From assembly GCF_025869515.1 (NCBI RefSeq), contig NZ_JAOZVR010000091.1, forward strand, positions 1-64,000: a stretch of DNA of 64,000 nucleotides, in the 5' to 3' direction. Of the stretch, positions 17,391-33,789 are shown in pieces. The stretch comes from Ferrovibrio sp. GTDB lineage: Bacteria > Pseudomonadota > Alphaproteobacteria > Ferrovibrionales > Ferrovibrionaceae. Made by a program: the position numbers and the translations under genes. The notes below the pieces were generated by a model. It was not told the DNA's origin, searched no databases, and saw nothing but the letters and a program-made list of their open reading frames with translations. Each line of letters begins with the position of its first letter. The stretch's first letter is position 1.

Positions 17391-17524
17391 GTTTTCAGCG
17401 ACCGCTTGAGCGATTCTTGGGACGATGACGGAACGGATTTTATGGTGTTGGGCGCTCCGAACCCCTTCCTGCGCAGCTTTGCCGCGAAGGAAGGGGCCGG
17501 ATGCCATGCGTTACGCTTTACCGG

Positions 17525-18814
17525 TTAGTTGGCCAGAGCCGCGTATTTCGGCTTCTCGCAGTTGCCGCAGACCCACGGGAAGGTCCAGTCGGCGGTCAGC
17601 TTGGCGCTTTCCGGGATGTACTTCGACCAGGCATCGGCCTTCACCGGGCCCTTGGTCTGCCAGACGATGTTGAACATGCCGTCGGGGCGGATTTCGCCGA
17701 TCAGCACCGGCTTGGACAGATGGTGGTTGGTGTTCATCACGGCGGTGAAGCCCGACGGCGCCTTGACCTTCTGGCCATACATCGCCTGACGCACGGCATC
17801 CACATTGGTGGTGCCGGCCTGGGCAACGGCCTGGGCCCACATCTTGAAGCCGATATAGGTGGCTTCCATCGGATCGTTGGTCACCCGCTTCGGATCCTTG
17901 ATGAAGGTCTTCCACTGCTTGATGAAGCCGTCGTTGACCGGGCCCTTGACCGACTGGAAGTAGTTCCAGGCGGCCAGATGGCCGACCAGGTTCTTGGTGT
18001 CGATGCCGGCGAGTTCTTCCTCACCGACCGAGAAGGCGACCACCGGGATGTCGGAAGCCTTGATGCCCGCGTTGGCGAGTTCCTTGTAGAACGGCACGTT
18101 GGCGTCGCCGTTGATGGTCGACACCACGGCGGTCTTCTTGCCGGCCGAGCCGAACTTCTTGATATCGGCGACGATCGTCTGCCAGTCGGAATGACCGAAC
18201 GGCGTATAGTTGATCATGATGTCTTCCTGCTTGACGCCCTTGGCTTTCAGGAAGGCTTCCAGGATCTTGTTGGTGGTGCGCGGATAGACGTAGTCGGTGC
18301 CGGCCAGGACCCAGCGCTTCACTTCGCCGCCGTCCTTGCTCATCAGGTATTCCACCGCCGGGATCGCCTGCTGGTTCGGCGCGGCGCCGGTGTAGAACAC
18401 GTTCTTCGAGCTTTCCTCGCCTTCATACTGCACCGGATAGAACAGCATGCTGTTCAGTTCTTCGAAGACCGGCAGCACGGACTTGCGCGACACCGAGGTC
18501 CAGCAGCCGAACACCACCGAAACCTTTTCCTTCGAGATCAGTTCGCGCGCCTTTTCGGCGAACAGCGGCCAGTTGGAAGCCGGATCGACCACCACGGCCT
18601 CGACCTTCTTGCCGAGCAGACCGCCCTTCTTGTTGAGATCGTCGACCATCATCAGGACGGTATCCTTCAGGGTCGTCTCGGAAATCGCCATGGTGCCCGA
18701 CAGCGAATGCAGGACGCCGACCTTGATCGTGTCCTGAGCCTGCGCGCCGGTGCCGGCGGCAACGGCGCCCAGCATGGCGCCTGCCACGGCCATCGTCCGC
18801 ATGAACTTGCTCAT
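17525..18814 (-). CDS. urtA: Urea ABC transporter substrate-binding protein UrtA
   Basis: A 429-residue periplasmic binding protein. The signal peptide MSKFMRTMAVAGAMLGAVAA ends near GAQAQD. The mature part starts TIKVGVLHSLSGTMAISETT, as in the UrtA family, and also shows PASNWPLFAEKARELI, FGCWTSVSRKSVLPVFE and the C-terminal CGNCEKPKYA. The ATG at 18814 has AGGAGAGGAA before it. It is the first gene after the sigma-54 promoter, as expected for a nitrogen-regulated operon. It is 134 bp upstream of urtB. Confidence 0.97.
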   Translation of the reverse strand: MSKFMRTMAVAGAMLGAVAAGTGAQAQDTIKVGVLHSLSGTMAISETTLKDTVLMMVDDLNKKGGLLGKKVEAVVVDPASNWPLFAEKARELISKEKVSVVFGCWTSVSRKSVLPVFEELNSMLFYPVQYEGEESSKNVFYTGAAPNQQAIPAVEYLMSKDGGEVKRWVLAGTDYVYPRTTNKILEAFLKAKGVKQEDIMINYTPFGHSDWQTIVADIKKFGSAGKKTAVVSTINGDANVPFYKELANAGIKASDIPVVAFSVGEEELAGIDTKNLVGHLAAWNYFQSVKGPVNDGFIKQWKTFIKDPKRVTNDPMEATYIGFKMWAQAVAQAGTTNVDAVRQAMYGQKVKAPSGFTAVMNTNHHLSKPVLIGEIRPDGMFNIVWQTKGPVKADAWSKYIPESAKLTADWTFPWVCGNCEKPKYAALAN

Positions 18815-18874
18815 TGGAATTCCTCTCCTGCTTGGGCCATGCCCCCCCGGGCCGGCCATACGGAGATTGGAATG

Positions 18875-20627: not shown

Positions 20628-21467
20628 TCACACCACCGTCGCATGCCGCTCGATGCAAGTGCGCAGCACAGCATCGGCATCCTGTTTCCACCAGTTATTT
20701 GTGGACATGATCTCGACCTCGCAGAAGCCGTGATAACCGACACCCTCCACCATCGTCCGGATCGCCGGAATGTCGATCACGCCATCGCCCATCATGCCGC
20801 GATCCAGCAGCAGGTCGGTGGTCGGCACCAGCCAGTCGCAGATATGGAAGGCCAGCACGCGCCGGCTGGCCCGCCTGATCTGCCGGGCCAGCTGCGGGTC
20901 CCACCAGACATGATAGACATCGACGGCAACACCCAGATGGGTGTCGTCGGCGCCGCTGCCCAGCGCATCGCACAGATCGAGGGCCTGGCCCAGCGTATTC
21001 ACGCAGGCGCGGTCGGCGGCATACATCGGATGCAGCGGCTCGATGGCGAGCGGCACCTTCGCGGCCCTGGCATGCTCCAGCACGGCGGCGATGCCGTCCT
21101 GCACCTGTTGCCGCGCACCGGCGAGATCCTTCGATCCGGCCGGCATGCCGCCGACCACCAGCACCAGGCATTGGGCGCCCAGGGCCGCCGCATCGTCGAT
21201 GGCGCGCTTGTTATCCTCGATGGCAGCCCGGCGGCCGGCAGCGTCAGCCGCCGGGAACATGCCGCCGCGACAGAGGCCGGTCACCGTGAGACCGACATCG
21301 CGGATATGCCGAGCAGCCTTTGCGATCGTGTAGTCCGCCAGCTTGTCGCGCCAGGGCGAAATGCCGGTGATGCCATGGCGCGCACAGCCTTCGATACACT
21401 GCTGCAGCGACCACTGCTCGCGCACCGTGGCGGTATTGAGCGACAGCGGGCCGGGTTTCGTGGTCAT
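20628..21467 (-). CDS. Sugar phosphate isomerase/epimerase-like TIM-barrel protein (AP-endonuclease 2 fold)
   Basis: A 279-residue xylose-isomerase-like TIM barrel. Likely metal ligands are E143 (LAIEPLHPMYAADR), D183 and H186 (VAVDVYHVWWD), H208 (LAFHICDW) and E250 (GFCEVEI). The family includes inosose dehydratases, tagatose epimerases and the beta-eliminating enzymes that act on 3-keto-glycosides. The ATG overlaps the DUF993 stop by four bases, so it is the last gene of the operon. The substrate is unknown. Its neighbours suggest a keto-sugar or sugar-acid intermediate. Confidence 0.85.
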   Translation of the reverse strand: MTTKPGPLSLNTATVREQWSLQQCIEGCARHGITGISPWRDKLADYTIAKAARHIRDVGLTVTGLCRGGMFPAADAAGRRAAIEDNKRAIDDAAALGAQCLVLVVGGMPAGSKDLAGARQQVQDGIAAVLEHARAAKVPLAIEPLHPMYAADRACVNTLGQALDLCDALGSGADDTHLGVAVDVYHVWWDPQLARQIRRASRRVLAFHICDWLVPTTDLLLDRGMMGDGVIDIPAIRTMVEGVGYHGFCEVEIMSTNNWWKQDADAVLRTCIERHATVV

Positions 21468-22627
21468 GCCGCCACCCCATGCACGGCCATGACGGCCTTC
21501 ATGCGCGCCGCCGCCTGTTCCGGATCGGCCAGCAGCCCGGCCGCATCGGCCAGCCGGAACAGCTCGGCCAGGTGCAATGCCGAGCGCGTGCTCTGCTGGC
21601 CGCCGACCATGACGAAATGATCCTGGTGGCCGTTCAGATAGGCCATGAAGACCACGCCGGTCTTGTAGAAGCGCGTCGGCGCCCTGAAAATATGGCGCGA
21701 CAGCGGCACGGTCGGCGCCAGGATATCGTGGAAGGTCTTTTCATCGCCGCGCGTGAGTGCGCCGAGCGCCGCCGAAGCGGCCGGCGCGATGGCGTCGAAA
21801 ATGCCGAGCAGCGCATCGGAATGGCCCTGCGCGTCGCCGGCGATCAGTTCGGCATAGTTGAAGTCGTCGCCGGTATACATGCGCACAGCTTTAGGCAACC
21901 TGCGGCGCATGAGGATTTCCTTGTCCTTGTCGAGCAGGGAAATCTTGATGCCGTCGACCTTGTCGGCATTGGCGGCAATAACCTGCAGGCAGGTTTCCAT
22001 CGCCTGCATGTGGTCGGCATTGCCCCAGTAGCCGGCAAGTGCCGGATCGAACATCTCGCCCAGCCAGTGCATCACCACCGGCTGCTTCACCTGGCTGAGA
22101 ATGCGGCCATAGACCCTGATGTAATCATCCGGCGACTTCGCCGCGGCGGTGAGCGCGCGGCTGGCCATCAGGATGATGCGGCCGCCGAGCTTCTCGATGG
22201 CGCCGCACTGTTCCTCATAGGCGCGGATCACCGCATCGATGGTGACATCCGGGCCTGGCGCCAGATGGTCGGTGCCGGCGCCAGACGCCACCACCGCACC
22301 CGGCACATCCTTTGCCGCATCGAGCGAACGGCGCACCAGTTCCAGCGCATCGTTCCAGTCCAGCCCCATGCCGCGCTGGGCAGTGTCCATGGCTTCGGCC
22401 ACGCCGAAGCCGAGCAACCACAGATGCCGGCGGAAGGCAATCGTGCGGTCCCAGTCGATCGCCGGCGTCAGCCAGGGATCGTGATCGGCCAGCGGATCGG
22501 CCACCACATGGGCAGCGGCATAAGCCACGCGGCTGAATGGCGGCTTCACTGTCGGGAAGGCCTTCGGCGTCTTCAGCGTATAGGGCACCAGTTTGCCGGC
22601 GCCGGCAGGCAGGGTGAGTGTCGTCAT
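21464..22627 (-). CDS. DUF993 family protein (aldolase-like TIM barrel)
   Basis: A 387-residue protein that I recognise as DUF993, which has a dihydrodipicolinate-synthase-like barrel but no assigned reaction. Visible segments are WLTPAIDWDRTIAFRRHLW, GFGVAEAMDTAQRGMGLDW, GGRIILMASRAL, VMHWLGEMFDPALAGYWG and the candidate Schiff-base lysine in VDGIKISLLDK. Late motifs are YTGDDFNYAELI and QDHFVMVGG. DUF993 genes typically sit beside Gfo/Idh oxidoreductases and isomerase-like barrels, as here. I infer a retro-aldol or lyase step late in the pathway. Confidence 0.85.
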   Translation of the reverse strand: MTTLTLPAGAGKLVPYTLKTPKAFPTVKPPFSRVAYAAAHVVADPLADHDPWLTPAIDWDRTIAFRRHLWLLGFGVAEAMDTAQRGMGLDWNDALELVRRSLDAAKDVPGAVVASGAGTDHLAPGPDVTIDAVIRAYEEQCGAIEKLGGRIILMASRALTAAAKSPDDYIRVYGRILSQVKQPVVMHWLGEMFDPALAGYWGNADHMQAMETCLQVIAANADKVDGIKISLLDKDKEILMRRRLPKAVRMYTGDDFNYAELIAGDAQGHSDALLGIFDAIAPAASAALGALTRGDEKTFHDILAPTVPLSRHIFRAPTRFYKTGVVFMAYLNGHQDHFVMVGGQQSTRSALHLAELFRLADAAGLLADPEQAAARMKAVMAVHGVAA

Positions 22628-22644
22628 CTCAGACCTTCAGACAG

Positions 22645-23799
22645 TTAAATTTTCAACTCGGGCAAGTCGATCCAGCGGCGCTCCTTCCAGCTCTTCAGGC
22701 CGGCTTCGGCGAGCTGCACGCCCTTGGCGCCTTCCAGCAGCGTCCATTTGAACGGCTCGTTGTCGACCAGATGGCGGATATACATCTCCCACTGGGCGCG
22801 GAAGCCGTTCGGATAGACGCGATTCTCCGGCACTTCCTGCCAGGTATCGAAGAAATTGATGCTTTGCGGCAGATCGGGATTCCACACCGGCTTGGGCGTG
22901 GCGACGCGCGGCTGTACGAAACATTTATGCAGGCCGGCCACCGCCGAACCCAGCGTGCCATCGACATGGAAGGTGACCAGATCGTCGCGCCGCACGCGGG
23001 TGACCCAGGAGGAATTGATCTGAGCAATCACACCGCCTTCCAGTTCGAAGGTGGCATAGGCGGCATCGTCGGAATCGGCCTTGTAGGGCTTGCCATTCTC
23101 ATCCCAGCGCTTGGGGATATGGGTGGCGCCAAGGCAGGAGACGCTTTTGACGCCGCCGAACAGGTTGTCGAGCACATAGCGCCAGTGGCACAGCATGTCG
23201 AGAATGATGCCGCCGCCATCCTTGGACCGGTAGTTCCAGCTCGGCCGCTGCGCCACCTGCCAGTCGCCTTCGAACACCCAGTAGCCGAACTCGCCGCGCA
23301 CCGAGAGGATCTTGCCGAAGAAGCCACTGTCGATCAGCACCTTCATTTTTTCCAGGCCGGGCAGGAACAGCTTGTCCTGCACCACGCCGTTCTTGACGCC
23401 GTATTTCTTCGCCGCCTTGACCAGATCCATGGCCACAGCCAGCGTCTCGGCTGTCGGTTTCTCGCAGTAGATATCCTTGCCGGCTGCCATCGCCTTTTTC
23501 AGCAGGCCAGCACGGGCTTGGGTGGTGGCGGCATCGAAGAACAGGGTGTCGTCTTTGTTTTTCAGCGCGGCATCGAGATCGTCGGTATAGCGTTCGATGC
23601 CATGAGCCTTGGCCAGACGTGCAACCTTGTCGAGATTGCGGCCGACCAGGATCGGATCGGGCATCACGCGGCGGCCGTTCTTCAGCACCACGCCGCCATC
23701 CTTGCGGATCGCGCAGATCGAGCGGATCAGATGCTGGTTCATGCCCATGCGTCCGGTCACGCCATTCATGATGATGCCGAGACGAATATCCTTGCTCAT
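22645..23799 (-). CDS. Gfo/Idh/MocA family oxidoreductase
   Basis: A 384-residue NAD(P)-dependent dehydrogenase. The N-terminal Rossmann part has IMNGVTGRMGMNQHL, the nucleotide domain ends at the family motif CEKPTAE (E113-K114-P115), and the C-terminal domain has RSKDGGGIILDMLCHWRY, with the Asp and His expected for sugar binding. Members oxidise a sugar or inositol hydroxyl to a ketone. It lies 17 bp from each neighbour, inside the same operon. Together with two isomerase-like barrels it fits an oxidise-then-eliminate route like those for anhydro-sugars or C-glycosides, but the substrate is not known. Confidence 0.9.
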   Translation of the reverse strand: MSKDIRLGIIMNGVTGRMGMNQHLIRSICAIRKDGGVVLKNGRRVMPDPILVGRNLDKVARLAKAHGIERYTDDLDAALKNKDDTLFFDAATTQARAGLLKKAMAAGKDIYCEKPTAETLAVAMDLVKAAKKYGVKNGVVQDKLFLPGLEKMKVLIDSGFFGKILSVRGEFGYWVFEGDWQVAQRPSWNYRSKDGGGIILDMLCHWRYVLDNLFGGVKSVSCLGATHIPKRWDENGKPYKADSDDAAYATFELEGGVIAQINSSWVTRVRRDDLVTFHVDGTLGSAVAGLHKCFVQPRVATPKPVWNPDLPQSINFFDTWQEVPENRVYPNGFRAQWEMYIRHLVDNEPFKWTLLEGAKGVQLAEAGLKSWKERRWIDLPELKI

Positions 23800-23816
23800 G
23801 GTTTCTTGTCCTTCTT

Positions 23817-25259
23817 TCACGAATTCAGTGTCATGGGGGCGAGACTGCCCCAATCGGGTTCGGCTTCGGCGGCAAAGCTGACAGCAGCCATCACGCTGCG
23901 CAGGTCGAGGCTGCCGTTGCGGATGGCGAGCCGCACCCGGCCGTATTTCGGGTCGCGGCTGTAGAGATCGGGATGGGCGGCAAAGAAGGCATCCTGCTCG
24001 ATCTGGGGCGCAGTGCCAAAGCCGTCGACATAATGATGCCCGTTGCGCTCGACATGGCTGAGGCCGAGGGTGGCGACCAGGGCAAGATCCTGCTGCACGG
24101 CAAGGCCGGCCTGGCAGGTGAGGTCTTCGCCGGTGATGAAATAGCCGTTGCCCCACCGGACACACCGCGCCGCGTTCAGCACCGCACGATAAACGCCCTT
24201 GCAGGTCTTGGACGAGATGCCGCGATAGCCGAGGCTGCGTGCCTGCGGGAAGACATCGTAATCGGCATCCGACTCGTCGACGATCAGCGGCGTTTCGGCG
24301 GACAGCGCCTGAACCGATTTCTGCAATGCCGCAGCGCGTTTGATCGGCTGCTCGATATACTGGATGGCAGCACAGAGCCGGCGCAGTTTCGGATCGGCCT
24401 GCATCGTCCGCCACAGGACTGCGATGCCATCGACATCGTCATACTGCTCGTTGCCATCCAGGCTGACGTAATACGGATCCGCCGACTGGTCGAGCACGGC
24501 GGCGATGCCCTGCAGGCGGGCGAGATCGGCTTCGGCATTGCCACCGACCTTGAGCTTGAACCAGCGATGGCCGTATTGCGCGATGGCGCCTTCCAGGCTT
24601 TCCGGCAAGCCGTCGTTGAGTCGCGACCCTGCCGCCACGTCGCTTTCACGCAGCGGATCGATCAGGCCAACCGTATGTCGTGCGGCGATGCGGCGATGCG
24701 GCACCAGATCGGACAGCCAGGCATCGAGACCGAAGCCGGCCAGATCAGGCGTCAGGACTTCGGCCCTGATTCCGAGCAGATTCCTGCCCAGCACGGCATC
24801 GAACGGCAAGCCGCGCAGGCGGCACAGCGCATCGATAACGGCGCGATCCAGCAGGGCCGGGCCATAGGAGGCCACCAGGGCATTCAGGCCGGTTTGCGCA
24901 CCCTGCCGCACCAGCGCTGCATGATGGGCGGCGGAATGACCGAACGCCGTGCGCGCCGCGGTATCGGCGGCATAGGCGTCGGCGGCATGGCGGAGGCTGA
25001 GACGCAGCTGGTCGAAATTCTGCTCGTTCGACAGGGCTGGATTCTTGTCGAACCATTTCGGCGCCATCAGTTCGGCCGAGGCGCCCCAGGCACTGCGCCC
25101 GTCGGATGTCTCGATCCGCAGCCGGGTAAAGGCCTGCGGCGCCTCGGTCAGGGTCACCACTCCGAAGCGGAATGGCAGGCGCAGGGTGACCGGTCGCTCG
25201 AACAGCCGGATCTCGGCCAGCCGGAAGGCAGGTGCGCCATTCTGCGAACGGGCTGTCAT
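23817..25259 (-). CDS. Enolase-superfamily enzyme (muconate-cycloisomerase/mandelate-racemase-like)
   Basis: A 480-residue protein with an N-terminal capping domain and a C-terminal barrel. Metal ligands are D268 (LDGNEQYDD), E303 (YIEQPI) and D328 (IVDESD). Catalytic lysines are K235 and K237 (FKLKVGG) and K351 or K354 (SSKTCKGVY). A Lys on both sides of the barrel is the pattern of the MLE subgroup, which includes cycloisomerases and epimerases; acid-sugar dehydratases are another option. It is longer than the usual 370-400 residues, mostly by insertions before residue 230. Its ATG overlaps the neighbouring barrel gene by four bases. Confidence 0.88.
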   Translation of the reverse strand: MTARSQNGAPAFRLAEIRLFERPVTLRLPFRFGVVTLTEAPQAFTRLRIETSDGRSAWGASAELMAPKWFDKNPALSNEQNFDQLRLSLRHAADAYAADTAARTAFGHSAAHHAALVRQGAQTGLNALVASYGPALLDRAVIDALCRLRGLPFDAVLGRNLLGIRAEVLTPDLAGFGLDAWLSDLVPHRRIAARHTVGLIDPLRESDVAAGSRLNDGLPESLEGAIAQYGHRWFKLKVGGNAEADLARLQGIAAVLDQSADPYYVSLDGNEQYDDVDGIAVLWRTMQADPKLRRLCAAIQYIEQPIKRAAALQKSVQALSAETPLIVDESDADYDVFPQARSLGYRGISSKTCKGVYRAVLNAARCVRWGNGYFITGEDLTCQAGLAVQQDLALVATLGLSHVERNGHHYVDGFGTAPQIEQDAFFAAHPDLYSRDPKYGRVRLAIRNGSLDLRSVMAAVSFAAEAEPDWGSLAPMTLNS

Positions 25260-26083
25260 GCAGCCTCCTGCAGGATCGGGCGCAGGTAGTGGATGGCATG
25301 GGCCGCAACGCCTGGACCATCGGGTTCGTAGATGAAGGGTTCGACGCCGATGTCGCCGGCATAATCGCCGCTTTTGAGCGCGGCGATGATCGGCACGAAA
25401 TCCATCTCGCCCTGGCCGGGACCCTTGCGGTTCGGGTCGTTGACCTGCACATGGGCGATCAGGCCGGTCGGCAGCCAGCGTTTGATCAGCGCCGGCACGC
25501 TTTCGCTTTCCGCCAGGCCAGCCGCACTGCAGTCGATCATGGTCTTGAAGGCATTACTGCCGATGTATTCGACGATGCCGACCGCTTCACCCACCGTATT
25601 GACGAAATTGGTTTCGCGCGGCGCCAGCGGCTCCAGACAATAGGTCACGCCGGCCTTTTCGGCGGCGCGGGCGGCCACGCCGAAGGCTTCGAGCGCCCAG
25701 CCCTTGGCGGCATGAATGTCGCGATCCGGCAGGCGACGCTGTGCCGGCGAGCCATGTACGAGATAGCGCCCGCCGAGATCGGCACAGAGTTCGCAGAGCG
25801 CCTGAATCGCCTCGCGGGTGCGGCGGCGCATGGCCGGGTCGGGATCGGTGAGCGACAACCCCCTGGGCGCCACCAGCAGCCAGTGCAGGCCGGTAACTGC
25901 CAGGCCGGCTTCTTCGACGGCACGGCGGATCACCCGCCGCTCGGCCGCGTTCAGGGTCAGTGGATCGTCCGACAGCGTGAAAGGCGCAATCTCCAGTCCG
26001 TCATAGCCGAGTTCGGCGGCCAGCGCACATTGTGCGACGAACGGCCGGCCGGCGAGAACTTCATTGCAGAGCGAGAGGCGCAT
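25256..26083 (-). CDS. Sugar phosphate isomerase/epimerase-like TIM-barrel protein, first gene of the catabolic operon
   Basis: A 275-residue AP-endonuclease-2-fold barrel. Probable metal ligands are E151 (YCLEPLAPRETNF), D184 (TMIDCSAAG), H211 (IAHVQVND) and the Glu in IGVEPF. The segment AGLAVTGLHWLLVAPRGLSL is typical of the family. It is only distantly similar to the second barrel at 20628-21467. It is the promoter-proximal gene and lies just after a palindromic operator and a sigma-70 type promoter. Substrate unknown. Confidence 0.87.
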   Translation of the reverse strand: MRLSLCNEVLAGRPFVAQCALAAELGYDGLEIAPFTLSDDPLTLNAAERRVIRRAVEEAGLAVTGLHWLLVAPRGLSLTDPDPAMRRRTREAIQALCELCADLGGRYLVHGSPAQRRLPDRDIHAAKGWALEAFGVAARAAEKAGVTYCLEPLAPRETNFVNTVGEAVGIVEYIGSNAFKTMIDCSAAGLAESESVPALIKRWLPTGLIAHVQVNDPNRKGPGQGEMDFVPIIAALKSGDYAGDIGVEPFIYEPDGPGVAAHAIHYLRPILQEAA

Positions 26084-26108
26084 CGTTCGGGTCGGGTTGT
26101 TGGTCCTG

Positions 26109-26128
26109 AAGTAACCAGTCAGTTACTT
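26109..26128. promoter_or_regulatory. TetR-type operator 1 (catabolic operon)
   Basis: AAGTAAC-cagtca-GTTACTT is a perfect 7-bp inverted repeat. Its core GTAAC-N6-GTTAC recurs at 29420-29435 before tctC, next to the TetR gene. Here it overlaps the -10 element and transcription start of the promoter at 26126-26155, so a bound repressor would block initiation. Confidence 0.8.
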
Positions 26129-26155
26129 ATAATGCGATACAGCCGGTTTCGTCAA
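26126..26155 (-). promoter_or_regulatory. Sigma-70 type promoter of the catabolic operon
   Basis: On the minus strand TTGACG (26155-26150) is followed after 18 bases by TATAAG (26131-26126). Transcription would start near 26119, within operator 1, and the first ATG is at 26083. The promoter lies in the 85-bp gap between tctA and the TIM-barrel gene, so the five catabolic genes can be transcribed separately from tctCBA. Confidence 0.65.
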
Positions 26156-26168
26156 TTCGCAGCATGGC

Positions 26169-27689
26169 TCAGGCGCGGCGAAACGGGCGCAGCAACAACG
26201 CGGTCCCCTGCCCCATCACCCGCCGCGCAACCGGGATATTCATCAGCAGGGTAAGCAGCACCAGCAGGAACAGCACGAAGGCGATCGGGCGGCCGAAGAA
26301 GGGTGTGAGATCGCCATCCGACAGGCTGAGGCCGCGACGCAGACTCTTGTCCAGCAGGTCGCCCAGCACGATTCCCAGCACCAGCGGTGCCATCGGATAA
26401 TTCATGCTGCGCATGACCAGGCCGAGGATGCCGAAGACCAGCATGACGAGAATGTCGAAAGGCCGTGAGGCGATGGCATAGGAGCCGACAGCGCAGAGCA
26501 CGAAGATCACCGGCATGATGAGGGCGCGCGGCACCAGCAGAATCTTCACCAGCAGCCTGGTCAGCACCAGGCCGTAAATCAGGATGCCAATGGAGGCGAA
26601 GAACATCATCGCAACGACGTCGTAAACAAAGGTCGGATTCTCAACCATGATCAGCGGACCGGGCCGCACGCCATGGATCAGCATGGCGGCCAGCAGGACA
26701 GCAGCCGGCGCAGAGCCCGGCACCGCCAGCGTCAGCACCGGAATGACAGCGCCGGGTACGCAGGCATTGTCGCCGGTTTCGGCCGCCATCAGACCTTCTA
26801 CCGACCCCTTGCCGAATTTTTCCTTTTCCTTGCTGGCGCGACGCGCGGCGGCATAGGAACTCCAGGCTGCGACATCCTCGCCGACACCGGGCACGATGCC
26901 GATGAAGGTGCCGATCAGGCCGGAGCGGATCACGGTGCGCCAGTATTGCAGCACATCGCGGATTTTCGGGATCACCGTGTCATAGGTATTGATGATGAAT
27001 TTCTGCGGCTTGTCCTTCATCACGTTCAGCACTTCGGCAAAACCGAAGACGCCGACCAGCGCAGGGATCAGCGCGATGCCGCCGGAGAGATCGTGCACGC
27101 CGAAGGTGAAGCGGTCGTAGGCATACATGCCTTCCTGGCCGATGGCGGCGATGAACAGGCCGATGAAACCGGCGATCCAGCCTTTCAGCGGGTCGGTGCC
27201 GGTCAGGTTGCCCGAGATCACCACGCCGAAGACGGCCAGCCAGAAGAATTCGTAGGCGCCGAATTTCAGCGCCATCTCGCCCAGGATCGGCGTGAACAGC
27301 GCCAGGAAGAACATGCCGATCCAGGTGCCGAGGATCGAGCCCGAGGTGGCGATCCCCATGGCACGGCCGGCCAGGCCCTGCTTGGCCAGCGCGTGGCCAT
27401 CGAGGCAGGAGGCGGCCGAGGCCGGCGTGCCCGGAATATTCAACAGGATGGCGCTGCGGCTGCCGCCATAGATGGCACCGACATAGGTGCAGATCAGGAT
27501 CAGCAGCGCCTGGTCGGAGGGCAGCTTGAGTGTCAGGGTGGTCATCAGCGCCACGCCCATGGTGGCGGTCAGGCCCGGCAAGGCGCCGATGATCAGGCCG
27601 ACCAGCGAGCCACCCAAGGCGAAGAGCAGGACTTCCGGCCTGGCAAAATGCCAGATCGAATTCGCAAAACCAATCAGACCGTCAAACAT
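26169..27689 (-). CDS. tctA: Tripartite tricarboxylate transporter large permease TctA
   Basis: A 506-residue membrane protein with about twelve hydrophobic segments. It shows the two family signatures GALPGLTATMGVALM near residues 36-50 and IPGTPASAASCLDGHAL near 85-101, plus the mirrored GIVPGVGEDVAAWSSYAAAR in the second half. With TctB and the binding protein TctC it imports a carboxylate. Its neighbours suggest that the substrate feeds the DUF993/Gfo pathway. It is 15 bp from tctB. Confidence 0.95.
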   Translation of the reverse strand: MFDGLIGFANSIWHFARPEVLLFALGGSLVGLIIGALPGLTATMGVALMTTLTLKLPSDQALLILICTYVGAIYGGSRSAILLNIPGTPASAASCLDGHALAKQGLAGRAMGIATSGSILGTWIGMFFLALFTPILGEMALKFGAYEFFWLAVFGVVISGNLTGTDPLKGWIAGFIGLFIAAIGQEGMYAYDRFTFGVHDLSGGIALIPALVGVFGFAEVLNVMKDKPQKFIINTYDTVIPKIRDVLQYWRTVIRSGLIGTFIGIVPGVGEDVAAWSSYAAARRASKEKEKFGKGSVEGLMAAETGDNACVPGAVIPVLTLAVPGSAPAAVLLAAMLIHGVRPGPLIMVENPTFVYDVVAMMFFASIGILIYGLVLTRLLVKILLVPRALIMPVIFVLCAVGSYAIASRPFDILVMLVFGILGLVMRSMNYPMAPLVLGIVLGDLLDKSLRRGLSLSDGDLTPFFGRPIAFVLFLLVLLTLLMNIPVARRVMGQGTALLLRPFRRA

Positions 27690-27704
27690 CGATGCAATCC
27701 TGAC

Positions 27705-28238
27705 TTACGGCAACCGGACCAGGAAGAGTTCTTCAAAGGCATACTGGATCACCAGTCCGGCCAGCAGGCCATGCACCAGGGCCACGACGATGCCGCGCGG
27801 CACCTGCCGGCTGGCGCGACGCTCGGCATACTGGAAGACGATCACGAAGGTGGTGACGTAGACGGCGGTGACCAGCCAGAACGGCAGCGCGCTGGCGACG
27901 ATGACCAGTGCGTAGACCAGCGACAGGCCCAGACTGAAAATCAGGCGCCAGTGTTCGACCAGCACCAGCGGGCGGCGCCGCCGTGGCCGCAGGGCACCGG
28001 CATTCACCGCGCGCAGCAGCAGGATCGCGCCCATCAGTGCAATGGCAAGGCCGAGCAGGCCCGGCACCAGGCCCGGCGCGGTGTAGATACTGGCCTGGAA
28101 GCGCTCCATCCGGTCCATGCCCAGGCTTATCGCTGCGATGGCAAGACCGAGCGCGATCCAGACGAAGCTGGACCAGAAATCGACACGCGGCGAAACAGCC
28201 GGTTCGGCGGCTGCCGGCGGGGCTTCGGTCTGGTCCAT
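27705..28238 (-). CDS. tctB: Tripartite tricarboxylate transporter small permease TctB
   Basis: A 177-residue protein with four hydrophobic segments in the TctB pattern (FWSSFVWIALGLAIAAIS near residues 21-38, then PGLVPGLLGLAIALMG). The start at MDQTEAPP has GGGAG upstream; an earlier TTG start is less likely. It lies 78 bp downstream of tctC, a gap that holds a hairpin with a T-run. Confidence 0.88.
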   Translation of the reverse strand: MDQTEAPPAAAEPAVSPRVDFWSSFVWIALGLAIAAISLGMDRMERFQASIYTAPGLVPGLLGLAIALMGAILLLRAVNAGALRPRRRRPLVLVEHWRLIFSLGLSLVYALVIVASALPFWLVTAVYVTTFVIVFQYAERRASRQVPRGIVVALVHGLLAGLVIQYAFEELFLVRLP

Positions 28239-28254
28239 CGCGGAAACTCCCTGC

Positions 28255-28301
28255 GAAAAAAGCAAATCGGCCGTCCGGCCCGGTGAGGAGCCAGACGGCC
28301 G
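28255..28301 (-). terminator. Intercistronic terminator or attenuator between tctC and tctB
   Basis: CGGCCGTC (28268-28275) pairs with GACGGCCG (28294-28301). On the minus strand the stem is followed by GATTTGC and a run of six T (28260-28255). This is close to an intrinsic terminator and would reduce the permease transcripts compared with the binding protein, a common design in binding-protein transporters. Confidence 0.65.
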
Positions 28302-28316
28302 CGTGGTGTGCGTGAC

Positions 28317-29336
28317 TTACGGCTTCGGAATGCCCAGCGTGTCGGGCGAGACCTTGGCCTTGCCGCCTTCCTGCAGGATCCAGGCGGCACCCTGGATCGC
28401 CGGGAAGGACGCCTTCTTGGCAGCCTCCCCATATTCAGGCCCGAACAGCGCGCCCTTTTCCGCGGAATATTTCTTGAGGGCGGCGTTGTTCTTGATCTTC
28501 TCCGCCCAGATCTTGTCGAGCGTGGCGATGACTTCCGCCGGCACACCCTTGGGCACGAAGATGCCGAAGTAATTCGCCTCGGTGCGGAAGCCCGGCAGCG
28601 TCTTGGTGATCGGCTCGATCGGCGCGACGCCATCGACTTCCAGCGGCTTGCTGGCCAGCACGGCGAGCGGGCGCAGGCGCTTGCCGCGGATCATCTCGAT
28701 CTGCTCGACGCCCAGCTGGCTGGTCACTTCGGTCTCGCCCGAGACAGTGGCGATCACCGCCGGATTGCCGCCATCGTAGGAGACATGCTTGTAGGTGGCA
28801 CCGGCGGCGCGCGACAGCGCCTCCGAACCGTAATGGCCCGAGGAATTCACGCCGGCGGTGGCGAACGACACCTGGCCCGGCTTGGCCTTCATCGCTGCCA
28901 GCAGGTCGGCGACGCTTTTGTAGGGCGTGTTGGGATTGACGCTGATGACCGCCTGGTTGGCGACGGTGAGATAAAAGTCCCAGTCATTGGCGGTGGTGTT
29001 CAGCAGGCCGGACACGGCATAGGAGCCGACGTCCTTGGCCGCGCCGGCCGCCCAGGTATAGCCATCCTTGCTGCCCTCCAGCACGCTCTTGGTGCCGATC
29101 GAACCGGACGCGCCGGGCTGGTTCACCACCACGACCTTCTGGCCGAGTTCCTTCTCCAGTTCGGCCGCGGTGACGCGGGTGACCTGGTCGGTCGAACCGC
29201 CGGCGGCCCAGGGCACGATGATGGTGATCGGCTTGGTCGGCTTCCACTGCTGGGCGGCAGCCGGCTGAGCGACGAAGCCCAGGGTGCCGGCAACGAACGC
29301 GGCCACAGCGGTACGAATAGCAAGCTTGCCTTGCAT
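28317..29336 (-). CDS. tctC: Tripartite tricarboxylate transporter substrate-binding protein (Bug/TctC family)
   Basis: A 339-residue periplasmic receptor. The signal peptide runs to AAAQQW (about residue 29). The mature start WKPTKPITIIVPWAAGGSTD is the Bug signature, followed by VVVVNQPGASGSIGT. The C-terminal half has VPKGVPAEVIATLDKIW. Ligands of the family are organic acids bound by backbone amides, so the substrate cannot be read from sequence. The ATG has GGAGGAGA upstream. It is the first gene of tctCBA, below operator 2. Confidence 0.94.
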   Translation of the reverse strand: MQGKLAIRTAVAAFVAGTLGFVAQPAAAQQWKPTKPITIIVPWAAGGSTDQVTRVTAAELEKELGQKVVVVNQPGASGSIGTKSVLEGSKDGYTWAAGAAKDVGSYAVSGLLNTTANDWDFYLTVANQAVISVNPNTPYKSVADLLAAMKAKPGQVSFATAGVNSSGHYGSEALSRAAGATYKHVSYDGGNPAVIATVSGETEVTSQLGVEQIEMIRGKRLRPLAVLASKPLEVDGVAPIEPITKTLPGFRTEANYFGIFVPKGVPAEVIATLDKIWAEKIKNNAALKKYSAEKGALFGPEYGEAAKKASFPAIQGAAWILQEGGKAKVSPDTLGIPKP

Positions 29337-29419
29337 GGCGGTCTCCTCCGTTTATGGATCGTCGCGATCCTTGTTATCCGCCCAGCATTCCGATGCCGGA
29401 CGGACTTGTCAACGGAGAA

Positions 29420-29435
29420 GTAACTGACCAGTTAC
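29420..29435. promoter_or_regulatory. TetR-type operator 2 (tctCBA)
   Basis: GTAACTGACCAGTTAC shares GTAAC-N6-GTTAC with operator 1. It lies 84 bases upstream of tctC and 22 bases downstream of the tetR stop. A TTGACA hexamer (29412-29407, minus strand) follows 7 bases after it, with a weak AATGCT 17 bases further on, so the operator abuts a possible promoter. Confidence 0.78.
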
Positions 29436-29456
29436 GAAATTCGACTTTCGGCCGGA

Positions 29457-30119
29457 TCAGGGCCGCAGGTACCCCAGCACCACCGCGATGGAATGGTCGA
29501 GACGGGTTTTCTGCTGCTTCGGACTGAGCAGGTTGCGGCCGAAAATGGTCGAGAGCGTATGGATATTGGAAAAGTAGAAGAATCCGAGCGCGGCGATGGT
29601 GGTATACAGCTCGACCGGATCGACATTCTTGCGAAATACGCCGTCGCGCTGACCGCGTTGCAGCAAATCGGTGATCACCACCAGCAGGGGTGTATATAAC
29701 TCGCGGATTTTCTTCGAGTTCTTGAGAAAACTGGCCTTATGCAGGTTTTCGGCATTCAGCAGGGCGATGAATTCCGGATTGCGCGAACAGAATTTGAAAT
29801 TGAATTCCATCAGATAGCGCATGCCCTCGACGGGCGACATGCGGGCCACGTCGATGGCATGTTCTTCCTCGCGCATGCGCTCATAGGCGCGTTCCAGCAC
29901 GGTCAGCCACAGGCCGTCCTTGTTGCCAAAATACTCGTAGATCATGCGCTTGTTGGAGCCGGACCGCGCGGCAATCTCGTCGACCCGCGCTCCGGATAAG
30001 CCCTTGGCGGCGAACTCGACCAGCGCGGCATCCAGGATATTGCGCCGCGTCACATCGGGCTGGCGGGTGCGGCCCGTGGTTTTCCTGGCATCAGGCTTGG
30101 CAGTCTTGGACTTCGGCAT
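29457..30119 (-). CDS. TetR/AcrR-family regulator
   Basis: A 220-residue regulator. After a basic tail, residues about 24-70 form the TetR DNA-binding domain, with VTRRNILDAALVEFAAKG and then RVDEIAARSGSNKRMIYEYF. The C-terminal domain (NFKFCSRNPEFIALLNAENLH onward) resembles RutR/YcdC-type ligand domains. It lies directly upstream of tctCBA on the same strand. The two GTAAC-N6-GTTAC palindromes before tctC and before the catabolic operon are its likely operators. I found no third copy before tetR itself. Confidence 0.92.
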   Translation of the reverse strand: MPKSKTAKPDARKTTGRTRQPDVTRRNILDAALVEFAAKGLSGARVDEIAARSGSNKRMIYEYFGNKDGLWLTVLERAYERMREEEHAIDVARMSPVEGMRYLMEFNFKFCSRNPEFIALLNAENLHKASFLKNSKKIRELYTPLLVVITDLLQRGQRDGVFRKNVDPVELYTTIAALGFFYFSNIHTLSTIFGRNLLSPKQQKTRLDHSIAVVLGYLRP

Positions 30120-30178: not shown

Positions 30179-31840
30179 TTACGGACAGGTAGCGCCGCTG
30201 GTGAAGCTGACCGTGCCGGTATTGGGGCCGGCGACGATGCTGCAGGCCGTTCCGGCGGTGACCGTGTTGCCGGTCGACCCGGCCAGAGCCGTACCGTTAT
30301 TGAAAACGACGGCACCGAATGTGCCGGCACCGCTACGGGCGACACTGAACGTGTTGTCCGCGACCGTCGCCGAGGAGCCATTCACCTGGATACCCAGGGC
30401 CGTACCAGCAGTGACATTGTTCACCGTAATGGTGTTGCCGCTGACCGTCACATTGCTGGAGCTACTCAAGACATCCACGCCGTGCGTCGTGCCGCCGGCG
30501 GTTGATCTCGCATTGATCGTATTGTTGACGATCCGGGCGCCGCTGACACCATTCGCACTTACGGCAATGGCATTATTGCCGGTGGCATCCGTATTGTTGA
30601 TGGTCAGGCCCATCAAGGTGCTGTTGTTGCCCATCACTATGGTGGCGTTGGCGCCGCCGACATCGCCGGTCAGCGTGGCAGTCGGCGAGGTCAGCGTGGC
30701 GACGCGGCCCGAAGGCGCCCGCACCGCGACACTGCCGCCGCCCATCAGGGTCTGGCCCGACTGCAGCGTCGTGATGCCACTGGCGTTGCTGTTAGCAGTG
30801 AAACTGCCCGACAGGATCACGGTGGAATTGGCGCCGGCATTGGTCACCGCCGTCGGCAGATTGGCGCCGCTGGTGCTGGCGCTGCTCAGCACCGTGATGG
30901 CCTGGCCATTGGCCGTGGTTGTCGCTATTTCTGTGGCGCCGAAGGCACCGGCCTGGGCGACGACGTCGATATCGCGCACCACCGGATCGGCCATGCGGCG
31001 CTCCATCGGCGTCAGCTTCGAGGCAGCGCGACCGTAAATCTGCAGCGGGATGCGCAGCCGCACCGAAAGGAAGCCTTGACCGCCGCGCGGATCGTCATGC
31101 TGCCATTCGGCACCGACGGAGAAACGCGAGCCTTCCCAGGAATTCGGCAGGCTATCGAAGGTCAATTCGGCGCGCAGGCGCGGGCCGGAGATGTCCTCGA
31201 TGCCATTGCCCGAGAAGCGATAGCCGCCGCCATAGACACGCAGCGCCTTTCCGGCATCGGCGTCGAAGACCGGCACGCGCCAACCCAGTTCGGCATCAAA
31301 TCCGCCCTGGCTGCGTTCCTCGCCACCGCGGAAGACGACACTGGTGCCGGACACCTCGGCCGTGTTCAGCGGGTCGACCTGATGGCTGCGGCGGCCGACG
31401 GGAGCGTAATAATTGGCGCGTGCATCCCAATCGATGGAAAGCGCCTCGATGCCGAAGGTTGCCTGGGTGAAGTGGTTGTCATACTCCGTGCGGCGGCGAT
31501 CGAAATAGCCATAGGCGCCGAGGTTCCAGCCGCTTTCCAGCATGTGGCGCACACCGAGGCCGAAATTGCCTTCGGCGCTGTCGTTGTCATCCATGCGGGT
31601 GCGGATACTGGCGAACAGCAAGGTGGCACCGTCCTGCGCCAGCGGCAGGAAGGCATCTACCTCGCCCAGATTACGCTTGGTGCCGAGCTTACCCTCGACA
31701 TCGATATGCGGGCTCCATTTGGGGTCCAGGGCCGATTGTGCGGCAACGGCAAACGACACCAGCATACCGACCAAACACAGAAGTAAGCAGACTACAGGTC
31801 TGCCCTGCCTGCGCGGCACAGCCAGCTGACATGCGTGCAT
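30179..31840 (-). CDS. Inverse autotransporter (intimin/invasin-like beta domain) with beta-helix passenger
   Basis: A 553-residue outer-membrane protein. The start at MHACQL has GGAGG six bases upstream, and a signal peptide ends near VAAQSA (residue 36). Residues about 40-270 match the inverse-autotransporter barrel: HIDVEGKLGTKRNLGEVDAF, GNFGLGVRHML, GAYGYFDRRRT, NYYAPVG, GFDAELGWRVPVF and LRIPLQIYG. After a linker, residues about 350-553 are Asn/Thr/Ser/Gly-rich repeats such as GLTINNTDATGNNAIAVS and TVSGNTITVNNVTAG, which fit a right-handed parallel beta-helix. The C-terminus has a Cys pair. Intimin-type proteins usually carry Ig-like repeats, so this passenger is unusual. Confidence 0.82.
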   Translation of the reverse strand: MHACQLAVPRRQGRPVVCLLLCLVGMLVSFAVAAQSALDPKWSPHIDVEGKLGTKRNLGEVDAFLPLAQDGATLLFASIRTRMDDNDSAEGNFGLGVRHMLESGWNLGAYGYFDRRRTEYDNHFTQATFGIEALSIDWDARANYYAPVGRRSHQVDPLNTAEVSGTSVVFRGGEERSQGGFDAELGWRVPVFDADAGKALRVYGGGYRFSGNGIEDISGPRLRAELTFDSLPNSWEGSRFSVGAEWQHDDPRGGQGFLSVRLRIPLQIYGRAASKLTPMERRMADPVVRDIDVVAQAGAFGATEIATTTANGQAITVLSSASTSGANLPTAVTNAGANSTVILSGSFTANSNASGITTLQSGQTLMGGGSVAVRAPSGRVATLTSPTATLTGDVGGANATIVMGNNSTLMGLTINNTDATGNNAIAVSANGVSGARIVNNTINARSTAGGTTHGVDVLSSSSNVTVSGNTITVNNVTAGTALGIQVNGSSATVADNTFSVARSGAGTFGAVVFNNGTALAGSTGNTVTAGTACSIVAGPNTGTVSFTSGATCP

Positions 31841-31946
31841 ACTCGCCTCCGGAACGCGGTCTTGCACCACATTCTCAGCGCCAGAGGTAGAGGATGCCTA
31901 TTAATCCGTCAAATGACTTCTGAATCCACAACTTATGGGTGATATT

Positions 31947-32720
31947 TCAATTCACCATCTCCGGCAGGGTCACCAGTTTCACCCCGGCCTGCTCCAGCCC
32001 GGCGCGGATATGCCGCGCCATCGACACGGCACCGGCGCTGTCGCCATGCACGCAGATCGAATCGACATTGCAGGGGATGCGCTTGCCGCTGACCAAGACG
32101 ATGGCGCGCTCCTGCACCATGCGCAGCACGTTGCGCAAAGCCTCGTCGTTGTCATGCACCATGGCATGGGGCTGGCCGCGCGGCACCAGGTTGCCGTCGT
32201 CGTCGTAATTGCGGTCGGCGAAGACTTCCTGCGCCACCGGCAGGTTCATCTTCGCTGCCGCCGTCACCATGGCCGAGCCGGCCGGGGCCAGGAAGATCAG
32301 GTCTTTCGACACGCCCGCGATGCCGCGTGCCAGCGCCATGGCGAGATCCATGTCGGTGGCCGCCTTGTTGTTGATCGCGCCATGCGGCTTCACATGCGTG
32401 ACCTTGCCGCCCCTGGTCGCCGCCACACCCATCAGCGCGCCGATCTGATAGGCCATCAGCGCCTCGACTTCCCTGTTGCTCATGGTCATCGGCCGGCGGC
32501 CGAACCCCTGCAGATCGGGATAGGAGGGATGTGCGCCGATCGAGACGCCGTTTTTCACGGCTTCGGTCACGGTGGCCTGCATCACGCTCCAGTCGCCGGC
32601 ATGGAAACCGCAGGCGACATTCGCGGTGCCGACCACGGCCAGCATGGCCGCGTCGTCGCCCATGGTCCAGGCGCCGTAGCTTTCGCCCAGGTCGCTGTTC
32701 AGGTTGGTCTTCACCGTCAT
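31947..32720 (-). CDS. pxpA: 5-oxoprolinase subunit A (LamB/YcsF family)
   Basis: A 257-residue protein that, with PxpB and PxpC, cleaves 5-oxoproline to glutamate using ATP. Motifs are LNSDLGESYGAW, ANVACGFHAGDW, SIGAHPSYPDLQGFGRR and VKPHGAINNKAA, with the terminal VHGDSAGAV. The start is MTVKTNL; a longer frame runs into pxpC. It is the last gene of the operon, 16 bp after pxpC. Confidence 0.95.
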   Translation of the reverse strand: MTVKTNLNSDLGESYGAWTMGDDAAMLAVVGTANVACGFHAGDWSVMQATVTEAVKNGVSIGAHPSYPDLQGFGRRPMTMSNREVEALMAYQIGALMGVAATRGGKVTHVKPHGAINNKAATDMDLAMALARGIAGVSKDLIFLAPAGSAMVTAAAKMNLPVAQEVFADRNYDDDGNLVPRGQPHAMVHDNDEALRNVLRMVQERAIVLVSGKRIPCNVDSICVHGDSAGAVSMARHIRAGLEQAGVKLVTLPEMVN

Positions 32721-32736
32721 GGGAGCCTCGCTTCCG

Positions 32737-33789
32737 TCAGCGCCACTGCCCGCTGGGGGCATCGACGGCGCCGCTGATCAGGTTTTGTGTATATAGCGCG
32801 TTCAGGTCGAGAGTGACATCGGGCATTGCCGTGCGGATGCCGTCGATCAGGCGGCGCACCTGCTTTTCCTGTTCGCGGCGAACCGCCTCGGCCTCGGCTA
32901 CCGTGACAGCGGCAAACTGCAACGTGTCGCCCGGCTTCATGCGGCCGACCCGCGGCAGGTCGGCGGAAATCACCGTGGCAATCTTGGTATAGCCGCCTGT
33001 GGTCTGGCGGTCGGCCATCAGGATGATCGGCTTGCCGTTGCCCGGCACCTGGATCGAGCCGGTGACCACGCCTTCAGAAGCGATGTCGGCGCCGCGCACA
33101 TGCTCGACGGTCTCGCCATCGAGGCGGATGCCCATGCGGTCGGCTTCCTTGGTCACTGTATAAGTGGCCGACAGGAAGGTCTCAATGCCGTTCGGTGTGA
33201 AGCGATCCTCCTGCGGCCCGAGCACGACACGGATCGGGCCGCCGCCGTAGTCGATCTCGTCCGCCAGTTCGCGCTCGTCGCCTTCGGCAGCCACGACATT
33301 CAGCGGCAGACGGTCGCCGGCCTTCAGCGCGCGGCCATCGAAGCCGCCGAGGCCGGAACGCATATAGGTCGAGAAGCTGCCCATGAAGGGTGCGATGGCG
33401 AAGCCGCCGGCCACCGCAAGATAGGCGATGCTGGCCTCTTCAACCGCGCCAATGGCCAGGCGGTCACCGCGTCTGAGCAGCAGCGAGCGCCAGGGTTTGA
33501 GACTACGCGCCTCGCCGCCATCGGCCGGCTGCAGGGTCAGCTTCGCCTTGCCGCCGAGCACGACGCGCACGCCATCCACCGCCGCGACCAGCGTCGGGCC
33601 AAGATAGCCGATCTCCAGCGCTGCCGTGTTCTCCGGGTTGCCGAGCACGGCATTGGCGAGACGAAGCGCAATCGGATCGGTGGCGCCCGCCACCGGCATG
33701 CCGAGCGCCTGCGACCCGAAGCGGCCGAGATCCTGCACCGAGGTCATCAGGCCGGGCGAGACGATTTCGAGAAAACCGGCCGCGTTCAT
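32737..33789 (-). CDS. pxpC: 5-oxoprolinase subunit C (biotin-dependent carboxyltransferase family fold)
   Basis: A 350-residue subunit starting FLEIVSPGLMTSVQDLGRFG, with GMPVAGATDPIALRLAN and the late ILMADRQTTGGYTKIATV. These are the marks of the KipA/PxpC family, whose fold is shared with urea-amidolyase carboxyltransferase domains. The start overlaps the pxpB stop by four bases (ATGA). Length is normal. Confidence 0.94.
   Translation of the reverse strand: MNAAGFLEIVSPGLMTSVQDLGRFGSQALGMPVAGATDPIALRLANAVLGNPENTAALEIGYLGPTLVAAVDGVRVVLGGKAKLTLQPADGGEARSLKPWRSLLLRRGDRLAIGAVEEASIAYLAVAGGFAIAPFMGSFSTYMRSGLGGFDGRALKAGDRLPLNVVAAEGDERELADEIDYGGGPIRVVLGPQEDRFTPNGIETFLSATYTVTKEADRMGIRLDGETVEHVRGADIASEGVVTGSIQVPGNGKPIILMADRQTTGGYTKIATVISADLPRVGRMKPGDTLQFAAVTVAEAEAVRREQEKQVRRLIDGIRTAMPDVTLDLNALYTQNLISGAVDAPSGQWR

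Follow-up and report, generated by a model that had tools for sequence, protein, structure and literature searches.

Closest described systems

The nearest partly studied relative of the locus described here is the 'ch' carbohydrate operon of pAO1 in Paenarthrobacter nicotinovorans, for which a D-xylose oxidation route has reportedly been proposed. Our locus is a nine-gene run in Ferrovibrio sp. on contig NZ_JAOZVR010000091.1 (C91 of a 4.89 Mb genome; G, C, L and f numbers denote genomes, contigs, loci and families), whose first 64,000 nucleotides we call the window. In transcription order it comprises TetR, tctC, tctB, tctA, TIM1, ENO, GFO, DUF993 (Pfam family PF06187) and TIM2. In pAO1, GFO (57.7% identical to its nearest relative in our set) adjoins DUF993 (51.8% on the same basis, and 50.1% identical to the window protein), followed by a glycerate kinase, and the neighbouring aldh bears a D-xylose Gene Ontology term. 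The pAO1 operon differs in that its importer is annotated as a sugar ATP-binding cassette (ABC) system, in having a GMC oxidoreductase and an aldehyde dehydrogenase, and in that none of TIM2, ENO, TIM1, TetR and Tct is annotated in the stretch viewed. Among the open-licence matches listed for pAO1 no title concerns the carbohydrate operon, and in the main text of PMC10494377 the word 'xylose' occurs 0 times.

Sinorhizobium meliloti provides further relatives: SMc04130 (PDB 3ju2) is a homologue of TIM2 and SMc04132 (4dnh) of DUF993. SMc04132 and SMc04133 appear in the gene table of a PhaR study, in the accessible part of which SMc04135 is annotated as an amino-acid/peptide ABC binding protein (PMC12542648); the accessible parts of the open-licence literature state no enzyme function for SMc04130-35. 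The pSymA cluster of the same organism (L115) shares with the window a DUF993 protein (58.7%), a TIM2-like barrel (44.9%), two operator-like sites and, with other related clusters, a glycerate kinase, here of the MOFRL type. It differs in its acyl-coenzyme A (CoA) dehydrogenase, CoA-transferase, enoyl-CoA hydratase, GMC and aldehyde dehydrogenase genes and in having no GFO match at 1e-6. Within the open-licence literature searched, no paper carries the term DUF993 (or PF06187, pfam06187, IPR009334), and no relevant paper was found for the structures 7VPF, 3JU2, 3QC0, 3OQB and 4DNH; the solved homologues of TIM2, DUF993 and GFO are titled 'uncharacterized protein', 'sugar isomerase', 'Xylose isomerase' or 'Oxidoreductase'.

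The pairing of a Gfo/Idh enzyme with TIM-barrel epimerases is common to sugar-acid routes and the window operon, and this superfamily logic, together with best NCBIfam matches to IolG for GFO and IolO for both TIM barrels, speaks for a known route of the inositol, levoglucosan or 3-keto-glycoside type run by diverged enzymes. We regard this as very improbable: GFO scores 61 bits against a cut-off of 355 for IolG and 59 against 650 for levoglucosan dehydrogenase (LevoglcsnDh), TIM1 89 bits with IolO and 71 with psicose epimerase against an equivalog cut-off of 300, and TIM2 46 against 300 for IolO, and to our knowledge DUF993 has no part in any of these routes. These scores led us to reject a plain inositol or levoglucosan pathway. 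Of the levoglucosan and C-glycoside logic invoked when the locus was first annotated from sequence (the original prediction), the shared pairing of Gfo/Idh enzyme and TIM barrel stands; membership of the levoglucosan and inositol families is not reached by score.

Recurrence, operator-like palindromes and importers

All nine genes lie on the minus strand between positions 20628 and 30119 (Table 1), at distances, from TetR to TIM2, of 120, 51, 15, 85, -4, 17, 17 and -4 bp. Open reading frames (ORFs), Pfam matches and spacing bear out the original description of five overlapping or tightly spaced enzyme genes beside tctABC and a TetR gene, and the operon can still be called uncharacterised, no close characterised homologue of the whole cluster having been found in the open-licence literature. 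TctA, TctB and TctC are all present by Pfam, making up a full tripartite tricarboxylate transporter (TTT) set. The likely start of GFO is the ATG at 23799, within a longer ORF; for TctB the gene caller gives an alternative start at 28238.

Of 398 genomes sampled from the phylum, 36 contain PF06187; among 14 control genomes the count is 0. A GFO orthologue (E<=1e-60) is present in 19 of these 36 genomes and a TIM2 orthologue (E<=1e-30) in 20, and every copy adjoins DUF993 (19/19 and 20/20); in G107 the DUF993 gene is split across contigs. Because the orthologues of GFO and TIM2 always adjoin DUF993, gene clustering exceeds chance. ENO was found in 15 of the 398 genomes; in 13 it is some 3 kb or less from DUF993, in G253 it lies on another contig than DUF993, and G139 has no DUF993. 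In a set of 115 DUF993 loci, which includes near-copies and loci truncated by contig ends, 90 have GFO near DUF993 (one of these, L144, by a match of just 30%), 94 have TIM2 there and at least 34 have ENO, a minimum since the gene caller overlooked some, such as the ENO of L002, found by tblastn. One scan gave 388 DUF993 relatives among 404 pattern matches. The closest DUF993 loci include Ferrovibrio ones, which are 84-89% identical, and the layout of the window is seen again in L002, L003, L004 and L008. The order TctCBA-TetR-TIM1-ENO-GFO-DUF993-TIM2 also occurs on Nitratireductor and Paroceanicella plasmids, whose TIM1 and ENO are 47-48% and 43-44% identical, respectively, to the closest member of the first set. 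The core GFO-DUF993-TIM2 is present in one actinomycete and one gemmatimonad as well, and so spans three phyla, Pseudomonadota, Actinomycetota and Gemmatimonadota. The cluster is of modular build, with ENO and TIM1 added to this core.

Two operator-like palindromes with the shared core TAACTG-N2-CAGTTA precede tctC and TIM1. The first, GTAACTGACCAGTTAC, is perfect and lies between tetR and tctC, directly upstream of tctC and of a TTGACA hexamer recognised by eye; the second, GTAACCAGTCAGTTAC, stands immediately ahead of TIM1. A promoter scan at its threshold found no sigma-70-like site on the operon strand. Sites are also found upstream of TctC in L002, L003, L004 and L008 and upstream of TIM1 in L004 and L008. 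Over the whole window genome, GTAACYGNNCRGTTAC at up to one mismatch matches the two operon sites and one weak site, GTAACCGCGCGGTTCC, at C3:15103-15118, a count that is not significant by itself because the backwards control yields equally many. Position is more telling: a search of 110 loci (2.09 Mb) for the core TAACTGNNCAGTTA, allowing up to two mismatches, gives 61 sites, of which 51, spread over 44 loci, are placed no more than 250 bp upstream of a cluster-family gene (GFO 20, DHDPS-like 11, TctC 9, others), in stretches that make up 6.9% of bases, the family list having been compiled after the first sites were known and related loci not being independent. The reversed pattern gives 13 sites, 0 of them so placed, and 179 permuted half-site palindromes place a mean of 1.3 and a maximum of 10 there. 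A first scan of all loci, duplicates included (2.6 Mb), gave 69 sites where one mononucleotide shuffle gave 32; position provides the stronger contrast. In 64 of the 110 loci a TetR relative (>=40% identity) is encoded no further than 9.5 kb from DUF993, and a site is present in 38 of these 64 against 11 of the 46 others (nominal Fisher p=0.0002). The operon is probably repressed by TetR, which would bind at the two candidate operators.

The importer beside the core is exchanged. TctABC is found in relatives of the window, Nitratireductor, Palleronia and Paroceanicella, and is replaced by an NMT1-type ABC importer in L131, L137, L141, L142, L147 and L149 (families f8, which looks Bradyrhizobium-like, and f44), where the run reads TetR, permease, binding protein, ATPase, ENO, GFO, DUF993, TIM2 and where Pfam assigns the L142 binding protein to NMT1. 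In L132, L143 and L161, the last from Sinorhizobium chiapasense and alone among them in having ENO, the core is accompanied by a CUT1-like sugar ABC importer ('CUT1' being our label; the L132 binding protein is Pfam SBP_bac_1/8), and in Gemmatirosa an MFS-like protein, so labelled by eye, precedes GFO-DUF993-TIM2. On a 66-row tree the TTT label requires at least four changes across starred branches, some of which may reflect losses or short contigs; since some 'NitT' labels denote a distant TauB-like gene and some 'none' labels short contigs, only loci with importer and enzymes in a single run were used here. Because the core sits with other importers elsewhere, Tct by itself says little about the substrate, and it was rejected as proof of an acid. 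The original argument from a carboxylate-type importer to an acidic starting compound is weakened by these NMT1-type, CUT1-like and apparently MFS systems, but an acidic intermediate is still likely, because enolase-superfamily enzymes act next to a carboxylate.

Table 1. Features of the operon in the window, in transcription order
Feature	Position	Strand	Support
TetR-family regulator (TetR_N + TetR_C_29)	29457..30119	-	Pfam TetR_C_29 2.1e-40
Putative TetR operator 1, perfect palindrome GTAACTG-N2-CAGTTAC	29420..29435		Palindrome search
TctC, periplasmic solute-binding protein	28317..29336	-	Pfam 1.7e-27
TctB, small membrane subunit	27705..28265, start codon uncertain	-	Pfam 7.9e-9
TctA, large membrane subunit	26169..27689	-	Pfam 4.6e-139
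Putative TetR operator 2, GTAACCAGTCAGTTAC, in tctA-TIM1 gap	26111..26126		Palindrome search
TIM1, xylose-isomerase-like TIM barrel, putative metal-dependent epimerase/isomerase	25256..26083	-	Pfam AP_endonuc_2 1e-36
ENO, enolase-superfamily protein, MLE-type catalytic pattern	23817..25259	-	Pfam MR_MLE_C 3.4e-8
GFO, Gfo/Idh/MocA dehydrogenase	22645..23799	-	Pfam GFO_IDH_MocA_C3 2e-24
DUF993, putative Schiff-base lyase of DHDPS superfamily	21464..22627	-	Pfam DUF993 4.5e-189
TIM2, xylose-isomerase-like TIM barrel	20628..21467	-	Pfam AP_endonuc_2 1e-39

As to the surroundings, an inverse-autotransporter protein (IAT_beta, 3.8e-14) is encoded at 30179-31870 (-), separating tetR from the gene at 31947-32762; a relative of that gene directly precedes tetR in L003 and L008. 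The genes upstream at 31947-34514 (-) resemble what we take to be 5-oxoprolinase pxpABC, and those downstream at 10216-18815 (-) presumably a urea ABC importer. In Roseomonas-type loci a second protein of the dihydrodipicolinate synthase (DHDPS) family (L058 7787-8827, for example, PF00701, 28 bits) lies shortly before GFO in 31 loci, with an operator-like site ahead in 11. A DUF2585 protein is found near the cluster in nine loci, as at L019 12991-13554, one of the nine members scanned.

The enzymes and the putative lyase DUF993

Gfo/Idh/MocA sugar dehydrogenases use the lysine of an EKP motif and a D-x3-H catalytic pair. GFO has both, with K114, D201 and H205 invariant in 72/72 aligned relatives, and its Arg54, after the second strand, suggests NADP; a close solved relative is 3oqb (4e-184). 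IolO and D-psicose 3-epimerase have a Glu/Asp/His/Glu metal site, and complete sites, matched by eye, are present in TIM1 (E151, D184, H211 and E248, invariant in 20/20 aligned relatives) and TIM2 (E143, D183, H208 and E252, invariant together with H186 in 64/64), the latter having 3ju2, 3qc0 and 7vpf as solved relatives. For ENO, the predicted model (predicted local distance difference test, pLDDT, 90.8) has mandelate racemase (MR)/muconate lactonizing enzyme (MLE) proteins as top Foldseek matches, and profile matches to muconate cycloisomerases and dipeptide epimerases, at E 0.0014 and weaker, place K-x-K and the metal ligands in register. The K-x-K/Lys pattern of the MLE subgroup noted originally holds up: 25/25 aligned relatives share K235, K237 and K351, together with D268, N270, E303 and D328, so that K-x-K, the Asp/Asn, Glu and Asp metal ligands and the second-side Lys are all there. 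ENO is divergent within the subgroup, being 480 aa long with a best solved relative at E=0.006 in a single-sequence search, but its assignment as an MLE-type member of the enolase superfamily is supported by the residues and the model. No ENO was found in viral contigs.

ENO matches are present in 92 Rhizobium plasmid records, and in three plasmid regions viewed (L157, L158 and L162) ENO occurs without DUF993, among genes for KduI/IolB, GH39, a TIM barrel, a D-2-hydroxyacid dehydrogenase and an oligopeptide-type ABC system, to which L162 adds IlvD/EDD and RraA. These surroundings look like sugar-acid catabolism, and the separate ENO cluster (L157 5332-11386, on Rhizobium leguminosarum p5) may represent a distinct route, for an oligosaccharide or a uronate. 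Among haloarchaea, a GFO orthologue (57%) adjoins a frame-broken ENO on a Haladaptatus plasmid (L160 5062-11390), and on a Halomontanus plasmid (L159 1803-20282) an ENO relative stands amid sulfatases and heparinase II/III.

Several of these matches would also suit a cyclic or aromatic-derived, quinate- or dihydrodiol-like acid, with GFO as a diol dehydrogenase, ENO as a cycloisomerase and a TIM barrel resembling dehydroshikimate dehydratase. The PDB relatives of TctC include, besides 2dvz, 5oei and others, the terephthalate-binding protein 8hkb; NMT1-type binding proteins serve aromatic acids too; muconate cycloisomerases are the nearest solved relatives of ENO by profile; and GFO shows weak similarity to dihydrodiol dehydrogenase (1.4e-6). 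Such a substrate nevertheless appears quite improbable in view of the CUT1-like sugar importers in L132, L143 and L161, the glycerate kinases in related clusters and the KduI/IolB and GH39 genes beside the Rhizobium ENO, and no ring-cleavage gene was recognised among 11 extra families, judged mostly by eye and with other neighbours unassigned.

DUF993 matches PF06187 over its full length (628.7 bits against a curated cut-off of 24) and is 72% identical to its solved relative 4dnh. Foldseek ranks 4dnh first for the predicted model and then DHDPS-type entries from E 5e-7, at template modelling (TM) scores of about 0.4-0.5, these neighbours being DHDPS, keto-deoxy-sugar-acid dehydratases, 2-keto-3-deoxygluconate (KDG) aldolase and N-acetylneuraminate lyase, in line with the aldolase-like fold foreseen in the original prediction. 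K228 is invariant in 81/81 aligned relatives, as it is in a wider alignment of 49 with pAO1 and the CoA-type clusters described below among them, and in a weak profile alignment and by eye it falls where the DHDPS/N-acetylneuraminate lyase class-I aldolases have their Schiff-base Lys. From sequence and model, then, DUF993 appears to resemble the Schiff-base lyases of the DHDPS superfamily. In DHDPS, GTTGE binds the carboxylate of pyruvate, and the Tyr of YNxP is a further signature. We read DUF993 strand by strand, by eye, against L150, the genome's best DHDPS match and presumed DapA: VDGIKISLLD pairs with IKGVKDATG, PVVMHWLGEM with IPIFIYNIPP, GVAEAMDTAQRG with GLVPVGTTGES and RMYTGDDFN with CQLDGDDTT. 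L150 retains GTTGES and YNIP, whereas DUF993 has MDTAQ for GTTGE and HWLG for YNxP. This reading, weakly backed by hhalign, would keep the Schiff-base Lys as K228 and replace the pyruvate-carboxylate motif.

A number of results speak against a Schiff-base lyase. The DUF993 model is mediocre (pLDDT 72.5; TM 0.54 and root-mean-square deviation 11.9 even to 4dnh), profile-profile similarity to DHDPS is weak (hhalign global E=0.0026; a broader hhalign script overlooked 4/6 DHDPS loci), there is no Pfam DHDPS match at E 0.001, and an hmmsearch of the PDB with the DUF993 profile gave nothing but 4dnh above noise. Because the alignments are weak and the model mediocre, Lys228 is put forward as a putative Schiff-base residue. 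DUF993 could, though this is less likely than not, be a new class of Schiff-base aldolase that has lost the superfamily's 2-oxo-acid pocket and cleaves a keto-sugar acid supplied by GFO. Alternatively, it could be a hydro-lyase or decarboxylating dehydratase, comparable to 5-keto-4-deoxyglucarate dehydratase, giving a semialdehyde and leaving the rest of the pathway unchanged; its Foldseek neighbours include 4ur7 (keto-deoxy-D-galactarate dehydratase) and 3fkk (L-2-keto-3-deoxyarabonate dehydratase), and an aldehyde dehydrogenase shares the gene cluster in pAO1, pSymA and Peteryoungia. We consider a dehydratase unlikely: with GTTGE and Tyr-Asn (here His-Trp) replaced in the by-eye strands, a 2-oxo acid substrate becomes less likely, and the window operon has no aldehyde dehydrogenase by Pfam.

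Related clusters and a proposed pathway

CoA-type DUF993 clusters are found on S. meliloti pSymA and in Paracoccus, Sagittula, Peteryoungia and Roseateles. Their DUF993 proteins, about 57-60% identical to that of the window, do not form one clade on the same 66-row tree, and their gene sets vary (GMC, aldehyde dehydrogenases, CoA-transferase, enoyl-CoA hydratase, acyl-CoA dehydrogenase, ABC importer), often including an annotated glycerate kinase, which was confirmed as MOFRL type for L115. Most of the loci L115, L114, L117, L118 and L167 have an acyl-CoA dehydrogenase together with an annotated glycerate kinase, and operator-like sites occur in L115 and L117. The sites of L115 stand ahead of the CoA-transferase and acyl-CoA dehydrogenase genes too, which ties the CoA-type cluster to that of the window. 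In 5 of the 36 genomes (all of family f13) the glycerate kinase family PF13660, the MOFRL type, is found no more than 3 kb from DUF993, in 2 more it is within 20 kb, and 35/36 have it somewhere in the genome; in pAO1 and Embleya a PF02595 glycerate kinase is in one run with GFO-DUF993. PF02595 and PF13660 are taken to be unrelated families; two kinase families for the same acid near the same lyase thus point to a glycerate-level product.

We give about an even chance to the window operon being dedicated to the uptake and catabolism of a polyhydroxylated carboxylic acid, which could be either an aldonic or uronic acid itself or a glycoside or a cyclitol acid that gives rise to one. The adjacency of the core genes and of ENO to DUF993, the invariant putative catalytic residues of all five enzymes, the fold neighbours of DUF993, the palindromes ahead of importer and enzyme block, the glycerate kinases of related clusters, the surroundings of ENO in Rhizobium and the CUT1-like importers speak for this scheme. 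In the order of steps that we infer, TctABC would bring in the acid, and GFO, probably with NADP, would turn a secondary hydroxyl into a ketone. Metal-dependent TIM2 (and TIM1) may then epimerise or isomerise the keto-sugar, and ENO, where present and when the entry compound requires it, may use its Lys/Lys pair and Mg to take the proton next to the carboxylate, for epimerisation or loss of water. DUF993 would cleave the keto compound to C3 fragments by a class-I retro-aldol reaction through a Schiff base at Lys228, with at least one fragment joining central metabolism at the level of glycerate. A six-carbon 5-keto-aldonate, for instance, would give dihydroxyacetone and tartronate semialdehyde; this compound is a guess, one that would fit a glycerate kinase.

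Other results count against such a pathway. The acyl-CoA enzymes of the CoA-type clusters are superfluous for a plain sugar-acid route. We identified no glycerate kinase in the window operon, the genome's sole PF13660 match being on contig C55, and a search of the 36 genomes, confined to PF13660, gave no match closer than 20 kb to any DUF993 that is linked to GFO. No operator-like site is present in 26 of the 64 TetR-bearing loci, including the six NMT1-type loci named above, and a relaxed palindrome search of six NitT-type loci and L143 returned none. Many loci, finally, have the core without ENO and TIM1, so these two may serve a side branch. This last point, along with the occurrence of ENO without DUF993 in G139 and the three Rhizobium regions and the frequently divergent ENO-TIM1 of Roseomonas-type relatives, would be in keeping with two independent neighbouring modules, Tct-TIM1-ENO for an acid of its own and GFO-DUF993-TIM2 for another substrate. 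We judge this improbable, as ENO, GFO, DUF993 and TIM2 form a single run with a different importer in the six NMT1-type loci and are separated in the window by just -4 to 17 bp, and as the same operator-like palindrome stands ahead of both parts. The observation behind the original prediction is confirmed and its interpretation partly supported; the operators, the modular build and the glycerate-kinase link in related clusters go beyond it, the TAACTG-N2-CAGTTA palindrome before tctC and TIM1, recurring upstream of cluster genes in relatives, being new here.

A structure has been solved for DUF993, a family with hundreds of members, and the cluster offers a defined set of four or five enzymes, a regulator that has two candidate operators, and alternative importers of several kinds, so that the function of DUF993 is directly testable. 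If the proposal holds, a new aldolase class would mark out a pathway conserved across Pseudomonadota, Actinomycetota and Gemmatimonadota, with importers and entry modules (ENO/TIM1, or acyl-CoA enzymes) swapped around the lyase. Such a pathway might be a further route by which root-nodule and soil bacteria use sugar acids that come from plants or soil.

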